A stretch of 64,000 nucleotides of DNA from Pseudomonas graminis (lineage in GTDB: Bacteria; Pseudomonadota; Gammaproteobacteria; Pseudomonadales; Pseudomonadaceae): NCBI RefSeq assembly GCF_013201545.1, contig NZ_CP053746.1:1155001-1219000 (forward strand). The letters are read 5' to 3'. The notes beneath the pieces are model-generated. The model made no database searches and was not told where the DNA came from. It saw only the letters and a list, made by a program, of their open reading frames with translations. Both the position numbers and the translations under genes were made by a program. Positions 20,455 to 23,649 of this stretch are shown here, piece after piece. How positions within the stretch are numbered: position 1 is the stretch's first letter; every line of letters begins with the position of its first letter.

Positions 20455-21447
20455 TTACACGGTCTCGACCAGCAGACGAGGACGTGAGCTCAGGGCGTAA
20501 CGGGCCAGACCAAAGCTCAACGCAGCGCCGATGATCAGCATGAAGAACGTGCCCCATGCTGCTTTGGAGACTTGCTTGGCCGCGACATCTGCCGCTTCAC
20601 GGGCCTGTTGCTCGGCCTGCGCCTTCAGCTCTGCGACTTTCGCGGCCGCTTGCTGATACGCCTGCGCATAGTTGTCGACGATCTGCTGCGCCTCCGCTTT
20701 GCTCTTGCCGGTGCGGGCCGCAACGATGTTGACCAGCGCGTCTTTGTCGGCGGCGTTCAAGGCCGGTTCGCCGGCTTTCTGAACGCGATCAAACCACTGC
20801 TTCAACTGATCGCCCGCCTGGGCTGGATCGGTAGACGCCTGTTCTGCTGTCTGCTTGGCATCGGCGCCAGCCACGTCAGCTTTCTGATCCAGCTTCGAAG
20901 GGTCGAGCTCTGGCTTGCCGGACTGCTTCAGGGTGGTGTCCAGCTGTGATTTCAGGCTGTCCCAATCCAGGCTGATGCCGTTCTTATCCAGCTGTTGCTT
21001 GATGCTCTGGCCCACACCCGGTGCGGCAGCGGCAACGCCGTCGGCCGCCAGGGAGATGCCCTTGCCGGCGATGTTGCCGGCAGTGCCGACGAGCGAGCCG
21101 GCCAGCGACGCGAGGAGCCAGGTGGTCAGCAACGTGCTGACCGTCCAGCTGAGCAAACCATGCAGACCACCACGGTCCGGCGCGGTACGGCCCGACACCC
21201 AGGCACCGGCGGCAATGGCCACCAGGGTACTGATGAACAACCAGGCGCCGGCGCCCTTGCCGAAACCGCTGAGTGGGTTGCCCTGGGCCATCGGATCAAG
21301 CGCGCCTGCGCCGATCGCCGTGCCAAGCACGCTGAGCACCAGGTAGGTCACCAACGTGATTGCCGCACCGGCAAACACCGATCCCCATGACACACGGAAT
21401 GGCGAAGCGTTGCCCAGAACGGCAGATGTTGCGTAGGTCGAAGCCAT
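20455..21447 (-). CDS. Membrane protein of unknown function with long central helical domain
   Basis: 330 residues, family not recognised. Three hydrophobic segments lie at about 24-48, 66-85 and 98-122, and one near 298-316. Between them is a hydrophilic, Ala/Gln/Lys-rich helical stretch (about 145-295) with coiled-coil character (AAAKVAELKAQAEQQAREAADVAAKQ). The Gly-rich first half resembles small stress-linked membrane proteins. It is divergent from a PAS-LuxR regulator whose other neighbour is a CsbD protein, so a stress-envelope role under that regulator is plausible but unproven. GGAGGAAATTTTC precedes the ATG. Confidence 0.75.
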   Translation of the reverse strand: MASTYATSAVLGNASPFRVSWGSVFAGAAITLVTYLVLSVLGTAIGAGALDPMAQGNPLSGFGKGAGAWLFISTLVAIAAGAWVSGRTAPDRGGLHGLLSWTVSTLLTTWLLASLAGSLVGTAGNIAGKGISLAADGVAAAAPGVGQSIKQQLDKNGISLDWDSLKSQLDTTLKQSGKPELDPSKLDQKADVAGADAKQTAEQASTDPAQAGDQLKQWFDRVQKAGEPALNAADKDALVNIVAARTGKSKAEAQQIVDNYAQAYQQAAAKVAELKAQAEQQAREAADVAAKQVSKAAWGTFFMLIIGAALSFGLARYALSSRPRLLVETV

Positions 21448-21463
21448 GAAAATTTCCTCCGGT

Positions 21464-21519
21464 GCAGGGGGTGCACATCACTCGTGCAACCGACGTGTCA
21501 GTGCAAATGCACCCCCTGC
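21464..21519. promoter_or_regulatory. 12-bp inverted repeat in the promoter of the membrane protein gene
   Basis: GCAGGGGGTGCA (21464-21475) and its exact complement TGCACCCCCTGC (21508-21519) face each other 32 bp apart. Between them is the perfect dyad GTGCAAATGCAC (21501-21512, partly overlapping the right arm). A single CAGGGGGTGC also occurs at 23296-23305 before the CsbD gene. Confidence 0.6.
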
Positions 21520-21605
21520 GTTGATATGGGCGAGCCTGCGAGGGCGGACTCACCGCGTCTTGTAAGACGTGAAACCAGTTTGATCAGCGCGTTGAGGGAT
21601 GTGAT

Positions 21606-21672
21606 GGCGCATTTGCACCGCTTCGTCTGGTGCATTCGCACCGACCCTCGCGGACACGGCTGCACTAAGCTT
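21606..21672 (+). promoter_or_regulatory. Bipartite dyad operator plus sigma-S-like -10 upstream of the PAS-LuxR gene
   Basis: Dyad A GGCGCATTTGCACC (21606-21619) and dyad B GGTGCATTCGCACC (21629-21642) are 23 bp apart centre to centre. The -10-like CTAAGCTT (21665-21672) starts 36 bp after the start of dyad B. The same arrangement recurs at 23257-23323, including a 12-nt identical core CGTCTGGTGCAT. Binding by the adjacent regulator is inference. Confidence 0.6.
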
Positions 21673-21760
21673 CAGCACTAAGGCTTTGCCAGCCGGTCGG
21701 ATAGCGTGGAGCGCCCGGCTGACCGAAGCCCGACCGCATTGAGACGTCAGGAGAGCAAGC

Positions 21761-23254
21761 ATGTCAGAGGCCATCCTCGCCAGAGAAACCAACCGCCGCC
21801 AGTTGCAGCAGATCATCTCGGGTCTGTCGGACGGGGTGATGCTGGTGGAGGTCGATCAGACCATCATCTGGGCCAACGAAGCGGCGCTGCTGATGCATGG
21901 CGTCGAAGAGATCAGCGAACTGGGCGCCAACGGCGAGGCCTATCGCGATAAGTTCTCCCTGCGCTATCGCAACAACCATCCTTTGGACGTCGATCAATAT
22001 CCGATCAGCCGCGTGGCGGCAGGCGAAGTGTTCAGCGACGTGCTCATCGAGGTCAGCAAGATCGGTGAAGAAGAGGAGCGCAGCTGGGTCCATCGCGTTC
22101 GCAGCATGGTGCTTGAAGACAGCACCGGCACGCCCGAATCGCTGGTGCTGATCCTCGCCGACGCAACGGAGTGGGCCGGTGCCGAGCAGCGCTTCGAGAA
22201 GACCTTCAACGCCAACCCCGCCCCTGCGGTGATCTGCCGCCTGAGCGATCTGCGCTTCATCAAGGTCAATCAGGGCTTTCTGGAGATGACCGGGCATTCG
22301 AGAGAGAGCGTGATTGGCCGCTCGGTGTACGAAGTGGACGTGCTGGAAAACGCCGAACGCAAGGACCTCGCCATCGAGCGTCTGAATCAGGGCGCGACCA
22401 TCCCGCAGATGCAGGCAGAGCTGAAGCTGCCGGAGGGCGGTACCAAATTGGTCATCGTCGCCGGGCAGCCGCTGGACATGAACGAAGAAGATTGCATGCT
22501 GTTTTCGTTCACCGACCTTGAGCCGAGACGCAAAGCCGAAACCGCGCTGCGCCAGAGCGAAGAGCGTTTTGCCAAGGCGTTCAAGCTAACGCCGGTGCCG
22601 ACACTGGTGTGTACGGCGGATCGACAACAGATCGTCGAAGCCAACGAGGCGTTTGTCAGCACCCTGGGTTACACCCCGCAGGAGCTGATCGGCCGGACCG
22701 TCGCCGAGCTGGGCTTCATCGAAGACGGCGCTGTGATGGACGGGCTGTTCAACGTCCTGGAAACCACCGGCCGCGTCGACGGGCTCGACCTGAAAGTCCG
22801 CAAGAAAGGCAGCGAGTCGCTGGACTGCGTACTGGCCGCTGACACCGTGACGATTCAGGACAACGCTTGCTACCTCTTCGTACTGATGGACATTACCGAG
22901 CGCAAGCGATCCGAGCTTGAGCTGGTCGAGGCCATCGAAACGGTGATGCAAGACGCCTCGTGGTTCAGCCAGACGTTGATCGAAAAGCTGGCCAATGCCA
23001 AGCGCGTCAACACCCGGCAGTTGCCCAGCGCTTCATTCACCGACCTGACCGCTCGCGAGCGAGATGTGCTGAGTTTGATCTGTGAGGGGCTGGCGGACAA
23101 AGAGATCGCTGCACGGTTGAACCTGGCGCTCAACACCATTCGCAACCACGTCGCGACGGTGTATTCCAAGCTGGACGTGCACAGCCGGGCGGAAGCCATC
23201 GTTTGGGCGAGGGAGCGAAATCTGTTCGCCAATCAGGGCAAAGGCAAACGCTGA
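21761..23254 (+). CDS. Triple-PAS LuxR-type transcription regulator
   Basis: 497 residues. Three PAS-like sensor segments in a row: about 14-130 (IISGLSDGVMLVEVDQTIIWANEAA), 145-265 (FEKTFNANPAPAVICRL) and 270-390 (FAKAFKLTPVPTLVCTADRQQ). The LuxR/NarL helix-turn-helix is at about 428-486 (LTARERDVLSLICEGL, NTIRNHVATVYSKL). No receiver domain, transmembrane segment or autoinducer domain is present, so it is a cytoplasmic one-component sensor. Its ligand is unknown. It lies between a divergent membrane protein gene and a CsbD gene, with shared dyads in both flanking intergenic regions. GGAGAG precedes the ATG. Confidence 0.85.
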   Translation: MSEAILARETNRRQLQQIISGLSDGVMLVEVDQTIIWANEAALLMHGVEEISELGANGEAYRDKFSLRYRNNHPLDVDQYPISRVAAGEVFSDVLIEVSKIGEEEERSWVHRVRSMVLEDSTGTPESLVLILADATEWAGAEQRFEKTFNANPAPAVICRLSDLRFIKVNQGFLEMTGHSRESVIGRSVYEVDVLENAERKDLAIERLNQGATIPQMQAELKLPEGGTKLVIVAGQPLDMNEEDCMLFSFTDLEPRRKAETALRQSEERFAKAFKLTPVPTLVCTADRQQIVEANEAFVSTLGYTPQELIGRTVAELGFIEDGAVMDGLFNVLETTGRVDGLDLKVRKKGSESLDCVLAADTVTIQDNACYLFVLMDITERKRSELELVEAIETVMQDASWFSQTLIEKLANAKRVNTRQLPSASFTDLTARERDVLSLICEGLADKEIAARLNLALNTIRNHVATVYSKLDVHSRAEAIVWARERNLFANQGKGKR

Positions 23255-23256
23255 GT

Positions 23257-23323
23257 GATGCAAATGCGCTAATGCGTCTGGTGCATAGTCACCTTCAGGG
23301 GGTGCTGTCCGGACCCTACGCTA
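23257..23323 (+). promoter_or_regulatory. Bipartite dyad operator plus sigma-S-like -10 upstream of csbD-like gene
   Basis: GATGCAAATGCGCT (23257-23270) and GGTGCATAGTCACC (23280-23293) are 23 bp apart. CTACGCTA (23316-23323) starts 36 bp after the second dyad starts, identical spacing to the copy at 21606-21672. It begins 2 bp after the regulator gene stop. Confidence 0.6.
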
Positions 23324-23391
23324 TGGGTGTGGCTGACGCAGTTGGGTCAGCGAGACATCCATCACTGAAACTCATTTTCTGGAGCCAAGAT

Positions 23392-23649
23392 ATGAAAAGC
23401 GAACAAGTGAAGGGCGTACTGGCACAGGCAGCTGGCAAGGCCCAAGACGTCTTCGGCAACCTGACCGGTGACGAGCGCACGCAAATGGAAGGCAAGGCAC
23501 GTCAGGCGGCGGGTGAATTGCAGGAGCGTTACGGTGATCTGCTGGACGAAGTCGCAACCTTCACCCAGCAACGCCCGCGCACCACGTTAATGGTGCTTGC
23601 CGGCCTCACGCTGACCGTGGGCTGGTTGCTGGCCCGTCGTCGCGGCTGA
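23392..23649 (+). CDS. CsbD-like stress protein with C-terminal membrane helix
   Basis: 85 residues. The CsbD-type helical segment VKGVLAQAAGKAQDVFGNLTGDERTQ-like region (7-30) is followed by a second repeat KARQAAGELQERYGDL. One transmembrane helix lies at about 63-81, then RRRG. Proteins of this family are typically general-stress induced; biochemical function is unknown. The ATG at 23392 follows TGGAG. Longer in-frame starts would extend into the regulator gene and the dyad element. Confidence 0.82.
   Translation: MKSEQVKGVLAQAAGKAQDVFGNLTGDERTQMEGKARQAAGELQERYGDLLDEVATFTQQRPRTTLMVLAGLTLTVGWLLARRRG

Follow-up and report, generated by a model that had tools for sequence, protein, structure and literature searches.

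The window, a 64,000-nucleotide stretch of Pseudomonas graminis DNA, contains two pairs of 14-bp dyads, 23 bp apart centre to centre: one pair lies upstream of the gene of a triple-PAS LuxR-type protein and the other upstream of csbD. Judged from sequence comparisons, we give a probability of about 0.75 to the reading that each pair is a tandem operator of the adjacent PAS-LuxR protein, on which two dimers would act by class II-type activation within a local regulon. The conserved target of the element is the gene downstream of the regulator, which encodes a DUF1652 or a CsbD protein. The features are listed in Table 1.

Table 1. Positions of genes, dyads and promoter-like hexamers; rows are numbered in window coordinates, except for the last row, which uses the coordinates of the individual loci
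Feature	Position	Strand	Remarks
Divergent membrane protein, 330 aa	20455..21447	-	no Pfam family
Third, degenerate copy	21485..21513	-	in the presumed 5' leader of the divergent membrane gene; first dyad GTGCATTTGCAC
-10-like hexamer CAAACT, divergent membrane gene	21577..21582	-	30.5 bp from the centre of dyad 1; nominal +1 near 21570
Upstream bipartite element	21606..21642	+	between the divergent promoters; 0 mismatches to the genus pattern
Upstream dyad 1	21606-21619	+	GGCGCATTTGCACC, direct reading
Upstream dyad 2	21629-21642	+	GGTGCATTCGCACC, direct reading
-10-like hexamer TAAGCT, regulator gene	21666..21671	+	59 bp from element start; nominal +1 near 21678
PAS-PAS-PAS-GerE (LuxR-type HTH) one-component regulator, 497 aa	21761..23254	+	Pfam
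Downstream bipartite element	23257..23293	+	directly 3' of the regulator stop codon, 5' of csbD; deeply conserved copy
Downstream dyad 1	23257-23270	+	GATGCAAATGCGCT, direct reading
Downstream dyad 2	23280-23293	+	GGTGCATAGTCACC, poor dyad
-10-like hexamer TACGCT, csbD	23317..23322	+	59 bp from element start; nominal +1 near 23329
CsbD-family small protein, 85 aa	23392..23649	+	Pfam PF05532, 59.7 bits, gathering score 40
Burkholderia copies without TANNNT	L224 3533, 1833; L225 3540, 1841; L234 3576		GATCCT-like or GATCAT-like, by eye

The stretch CGTCTGGTGCAT is identical in the upstream and the downstream element of the window, and in both a box begins 36 bp downstream of the first base of the second dyad: CTAAGCTT (21665-21672) in front of the regulator gene and CTACGCTA (23316-23323) in front of csbD. 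Dyad pairs 23 bp apart at both genes, with an identical 12-nt core and a box at 36 bp, had been claimed in a preliminary description of this DNA; the pairs are present at the positions it gave, and direct reading confirms core and box. The exact 12-nt core of the window is not general across the genus. The same description mentioned a partial third copy: it does sit 5' of the divergent gene, and is more than a single dyad, as a second half exists too. The dyad GTGCATTTGCAC alone is conserved in the three closest relatives (L017-L019), the second half varies and no -10 hexamer is found at the proper distance; the third copy was thus rejected as a full promoter element.

The regulator has PAS_8 matches in three stretches, followed by a C-terminal GerE helix-turn-helix (PF00196, residues 429-483), the domain order that defines PAS-LuxR proteins. 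The Pfam result contains neither an autoinducer-binding domain, as would be expected of a quorum-sensing LuxR protein, nor the receiver domain of a NarL/FixJ response regulator. Its closest named orthologs are from Pseudomonas sp. CFBP 13711 (98%) and P. graminis (97% and 96%); the relatives listed bear generic names (helix-turn-helix transcriptional regulator, PAS domain S-box protein) or borrowed ones (MalT, DesR). Among 25 family members from Alpha-, Beta- and Gammaproteobacteria, 68 positions are invariant, including Cys245 and Trp401-Phe402 of the linker, and these residues are a possible redox or ligand site. The csbD product belongs to the CsbD family, with a PF05532 score well above gathering. 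For the membrane protein, 120 of 194 relatives were listed and those with a name are from Pseudomonas and Serratia; some homologues are labelled TIGR04086 family membrane protein. A genome labelled as the same species (G020) matches the window through rpe (88%); further on, weak short matches around the gene 3' of csbD are all that is found, and the membrane gene, the regulator and csbD have no match. The cassette at 20455-23649 looks like a block that is either present or absent.

The window has no excess of single dyads: 13 were found, 11.2 were expected and 33 of 100 shuffles had as many. The paired pattern GCANNNGCRCYNNNNCGTCTGGTGCA occurs without mismatch at just two places in the 5.5-Mb genome (5.52 Mb), both at this locus, and the sole site with two mismatches is the third copy (minus strand, 21510-21485); at three mismatches there are 13 matches, the background level, as the reversed-pattern control gives 17. 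With a broader pattern, the two matches without mismatch are again both here, and of five matches with two to three mismatches (reversed control: 0) one is the upstream element read on the opposite strand. In its bipartite form, the element is not a product of chance in this genome. The genome also holds 59 matches to the single dyad, and a single-dyad regulon found no support at the six places inspected, namely five of these 59 matches and one weak bipartite match: five of the six lie inside reading frames of at least 150 aa, one of them at the very end of its frame, and at the sixth (362343) just a 106-aa frame is listed.

A wider regulon was searched for in 149 Pseudomonas genomes with a stricter pattern and three mismatches allowed. 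This gave 91 matches, of which 70 adjoin the regulator gene, in 57 of the 75 genomes that have the regulator; some of these 70 are one element counted on both strands. Off-locus matches are at background level, because their number is similar in the 75 genomes with the regulator (12), in the 74 genomes without it (9) and in the reversed control (6 in all 149 genomes). The regulon is local: no excess is found elsewhere at the sensitivity used, which leaves room for weaker or single-dyad targets. The genome scans also bear on the reading of the palindromes as a repetitive or RNA-level feature, such as a REP-like repeat or a terminator, which their location between genes as inverted repeats would suit. 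To this we give hardly any credence, as the palindromes are not repeated elsewhere in the genome, hold a fixed position relative to the -10 hexamer, and Rfam has no family at the locus except for two matches below their gathering scores. These two matches were the only ones, and a small RNA between element and csbD in the window is likewise without Rfam support.

To follow the element across the genus, we sampled 149 Pseudomonas genomes, including the one studied here, identified the regulator at E <= 1e-60 in 75 of them and took the flanks of all 75. A second set consists of 80 named loci; these are best matches, biased towards near relatives, and may overlap in species with the 75 genomes. 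Flanks were scanned with the pattern GYGCAWWTGCACY-N9-RGTGCRWWNGCNCC and the element was called present at five mismatches or fewer. Directly after the stop codon of the regulator, it is present in 74/75 genomes and in 75/80 named loci. In the 75-genome set the copies have one to five mismatches, in contrast to the best places of the controls, with 7-12 for reversed flanks and 8-11 for coding sequence. In the downstream copies, information content is mostly 1.3-2 bits per column over dyad 1 and the left half of dyad 2 and lower over the right half of dyad 2, which is poor at the csbD gene of the window and in most downstream copies of Pseudomonas; the spacer and the stretch up to the -10 hexamer are largely under 0.5 bits. 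Strain kinship does not explain the conservation, since the dyad columns are high and much of the spacer is low.

The gene that follows the downstream element in the 75 genomes encodes DUF1652 (PF07865) in 62 cases, CsbD together with DUF1652 in ten and CsbD alone in two, one of which is the window; none was found in one genome. This single genome without a csbD or DUF1652 gene after the regulator (L099) also has no element. Among the named loci, the element is found at all 74 that have csbD or DUF1652 next to the regulator, and it is absent from five (L024, L028-L031) of the six loci that have neither; the sixth (L019) keeps it although csbD is gone. The nominal leaders between downstream start and open reading frame range from 27 to 165 nt in Pseudomonas. 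The preliminary description had expected conservation in orthologous promoters, and the dyads are indeed conserved, with fixed spacing to the -10 hexamer; its assignment of the dyads to the PAS-LuxR gene and its neighbours, rather than to random places, is borne out by the genome scans. On both points on which it had staked the element, conservation and non-random occurrence genome-wide, the outcome favours the element. Autoregulation, which it proposed, is not what is conserved: the conserved target is the gene downstream of the regulator, which it overlooked.

The distance between element and -10 hexamer was counted with the G of GYGCA as position 0, which places the dyad centres at 5.5 and 28.5. 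A TANNNT hexamer is found at 58-60 in all 149 downstream copies (at 59 in 140 of them) and at 59-61 in 72/83 upstream copies, the remaining 11 having none there. On the divergent side, 72/72 loci with both element and membrane gene have a CANAC motif, which starts 30.5 bp from the proximal dyad centre in 35 loci and 31.5 bp from it in 37; the distance from the motif to the ATG varies widely (nominal leader 10 to 124 nt). Placing the hexamer at -12 to -7 would centre the dyads at about -42.5 and -65.5 from the nominal starts. Two dyads at these positions are the layout of class II activation in which a LuxR-type protein has a second dimer bound farther upstream. By sequence and nominal position, a palindrome with an AWWT core (GTGCAWWTGCAC) lies over the -35 position, dyad 2 being centred at about -42.5. 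Matches to TTGACA at a spacing of 16-18 reach at most 4/6 in the 75-genome set, and thus no -35 box is recognisable. A C at -13, just before the -10 hexamer, is the usual mark of sigma-S promoters; it is present at 13 of the 15 scoreable upstream hexamers (of 19) and at 10/74 downstream hexamers, so that the sigma-S link suggested in the preliminary description is a candidate reading only.

These distances suggest the following mechanism. Two dimers of the PAS-LuxR protein, the presumed binder, would occupy the two dyads, whose centres lie near -65.5 and -42.5 relative to the expected start, and the proximal dimer would take the place of a -35 box and recruit RNA polymerase to the -10 hexamer at its fixed distance. 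A signal sensed by the PAS domains, presumably one of stress, would turn on the gene that directly follows the regulator, which encodes CsbD in the window and DUF1652 in most Pseudomonas examined, and the same signal would switch on the divergent membrane-protein gene where it is present, and perhaps the regulator gene as well.

The same protein on the same sites might instead be a repressor, its dimers at -42.5 and -65.5 blocking RNA polymerase until the signal arrives. A dyad over the -35 position would suit a repressor equally well and the third dyad of the window is 3' of the presumed membrane-gene start. A repressible promoter would, however, be expected to have a -35 box of its own, and none is seen (at most 4/6 matches); the spacing to the -10 hexamer is fixed on up to three promoters; and PimM and CfaR are activators according to PMC4380410. 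We therefore regard repression as improbable and activation by the PAS-LuxR protein as the preferred reading.

Conservation of the upstream element is patchy: it is present in 19/75 genomes and in 64/80 named loci. Where the membrane gene is present, the element is found in 17/17 (75-genome set) and 55/55 (named set) cases; where it is absent, in 2/58 and 9/25. On a tree of the 75 proteins, the upstream element occurs in two separate clades (3/3 and 16/21 members), equivalent to at least two changes by gain or loss. The regulator's own CACTATCCT hexamer is kept in several loci without upstream element (L052, L055 and L071). The element may act on the divergent gene, on the regulator gene or on both. 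It might even serve the membrane gene only, so that the regulator would be autoregulated in no lineage; its strict association with the membrane gene, the retention of the regulator -10 hexamer in element-less loci such as L052 and L055 and the report that PimM and CfaR do not regulate their own genes (PMC4380410) all agree with this. Against it, the hexamer on the regulator side holds its 59-61 spacing in most upstream copies and 11 loci (two plus nine) retain the element without the membrane gene, and we consider an exclusive role for the membrane gene rather unlikely. The upstream copy is probably a lineage-specific extension to the divergent gene, perhaps also to the regulator. The link between the regulator and its downstream gene is the general and probably older part, as the downstream element is conserved and the upstream element patchy. 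Of the autoregulation proposed earlier, there remains an element 5' of the regulator in the window; autoregulation is not the conserved part, as the upstream element is limited to 19/75 genomes and tracks the membrane gene.

Outside Pseudomonas, 321 genomes of Gammaproteobacteria yielded one further regulator ortholog past 1e-40, and the family of this ortholog has 12 orthologs in 81 genomes (four genera). The relatives of these halomonad orthologs are named Kushneria, Salinicola and Halotalea; the four that were compared share 43-58% protein identity. The paired dyad is present in 12/12 halomonad orthologs (L211-L222), within about 50 nt of the stop codon, and the copies of L220 and L221 are nearly Pseudomonas-like (GCAAATGCACTAG-N6-TAGTGC). 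The -10-like hexamer at 59-60 is TATATT in six loci, TATCTT in three and TAAAGT in one; in the remaining two it reads, by eye, CAGAAT.

In the halomonads, the element probably precedes, instead of a gene, a predicted RNA of the CsrB/RsmZ type. In L211, no obvious reading frame is seen in the stretch after the element, and at all 12 loci the 215-300 nt examined behind the element contain a GGA-rich stretch that partly folds into short hairpins (for example L220:3012-3226). Over the 12 loci, repeated GGA was counted 48 times in hairpins, compared with 16.5 +- 4.2 in shuffles (maximum 31 in 200 shuffled sets). Among single loci, L217-L219 and L222 stand out (0-3 of 200 shuffles), the values for L220 (10 of 200 shuffles) and L221 (7 of 200 shuffles) are borderline, and the six Kushneria-like loci L211-L216 are not significant singly (18-95 of 200 shuffles). 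Aligned with each other, these six keep most GGA motifs; 8/71 predicted pairs are changed on both sides and the covariation term of -0.41 is weak. Rfam returned no relevant match in the eight halomonad loci searched (L211 and seven others of the 12). The halomonad loci thus share with CsrB/RsmZ-type sRNAs several GGA hairpins in a stretch without obvious gene, but differ in the lack of an Rfam match and in having the dyad pair as predicted operator rather than a GacA site, which is TGTAAG-N6-CTTACA.

Of 22 matches on plasmids or chromids, 12 loci were fetched, five betaproteobacterial and seven alphaproteobacterial. The betaproteobacterial loci (Variovorax, Comamonadaceae and three Burkholderia) all have the element, with 4-6 mismatches, and each has one csbD-facing copy with TANNNT at 59; five further Burkholderia copies, facing a second csbD or the regulator, have no TANNNT at this position (Table 1). 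The gene order in Variovorax is element, csbD, membrane-protein homologue (53%), regulator. The tandem element is thus kept in register with the -10 hexamer from Pseudomonas to the halomonads, and in one copy per locus in Burkholderia and relatives.

In the alphaproteobacterial orthologs, the element was found in 0/7 at seven mismatches or fewer. CsbD genes adjoin alphaproteobacterial orthologs too. In Novosphingobium (L232 3450-3710), a stretch resembles, by eye, a diverged element of the same spacing and is absent from the scan at up to seven mismatches; no dyad pair was seen in the Microvirga stretches printed. Two Rhizobium loci (L231 3498-3745 and L233 3528-3655) share a different motif between genes, ATTGGTATTTT and CCAATCTGCA, located 3' of the regulator; this may be the operator of the alphaproteobacterial branch. 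In the recognition helix, the 25 proteins compared all have T459, R461 and N462; 6/7 alphaproteobacterial proteins read VNRR and the other proteins VHSR or LHSR, a difference that is no more than suggestive. In Microvirga (L229 763-5470), CsbD, PhnA-like and YsnF/AvaK-domain genes come after the regulator, and in Rhizobium tumorigenes (L233 3650-4779) CsbD, BON-domain and DUF992 genes; perhaps these neighbourhoods are a wider stress cassette.

It counts against the operator reading that the co-occurrence of dyads and regulator is all by physical linkage, and a transcription factor other than the PAS-LuxR protein could bind the dyads, as their tie to the regulator is linkage alone. Yet the elements adjoin the regulator gene in Pseudomonas, halomonads and betaproteobacteria despite differing other neighbours, and the off-locus matches in Pseudomonas are at background; a different factor is accordingly very unlikely. 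Further points against the operator reading are the poor right half of dyad 2, the alphaproteobacterial orthologs examined, in which the element was not found at up to seven mismatches, its retention without csbD in L019, the 11 upstream and five Burkholderia copies that have no TANNNT at the expected place, and the limited spread of the window's 12-nt core in the genus. With the PAS-LuxR protein as the predicted binder, the data can be read as an ancient regulator-operator cassette of Beta- and Gammaproteobacteria, its wiring frozen and its output swapped between CsbD, DUF1652, the membrane protein and, in the halomonads, a CsrB/RsmZ-like RNA through which the PAS signal would reach Csr without GacA; to this wider picture we give even odds.

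In the open literature (most subscription journals are outside this coverage), we found no description of the combination of regulator and element. A widespread but generically named regulator thereby gains a precise predicted operator, a fixed promoter geometry and a list of targets, so that the signal of its PAS domains can be searched for with a simple csbD or DUF1652 reporter. CsbD and DUF1652, both small proteins of unclear function, gain a dedicated predicted controller and the halomonad RNA, if a true CsrB analogue, would be a new input to Csr regulation.

Activators of the LuxR and NarL/FixJ classes bind at about -42.5 and -65, as known for the lux box, UhpA and FixJ. The regulator described here shares with them the helix-turn-helix family and a similar operator geometry, and differs in having no listed autoinducer-binding or receiver domain. 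CsbD genes are known to be controlled by stress sigma factors. The target in the window is a Pfam CsbD protein, as are the CsbD/YjbJ general-stress proteins; the difference is the dedicated one-component regulator with its own operator that is predicted here. PimM has one PAS domain and the present regulator three. According to PMC4380410, the site of PimM is CTVGGGAWWTCCCBAG, a palindrome around AWWT that typically overlaps the -35 box, and the dyad with its AWWT core agrees with this layout. Streptomyces PimM and CfaR further resemble the system described here in the combination of a PAS sensory part with a C-terminal GerE helix-turn-helix and in a 16-bp palindrome with AWWT centre at or adjoining the -35 box (PMC4380410). 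In contrast to PimM and CfaR, the arms are GGTGC here rather than CTVGGG, two dyads stand at a fixed 23-bp spacing, some lineages have dyads beside the regulator's own gene as well, and the predicted targets are small stress-type genes rather than antibiotic or phytotoxin clusters.
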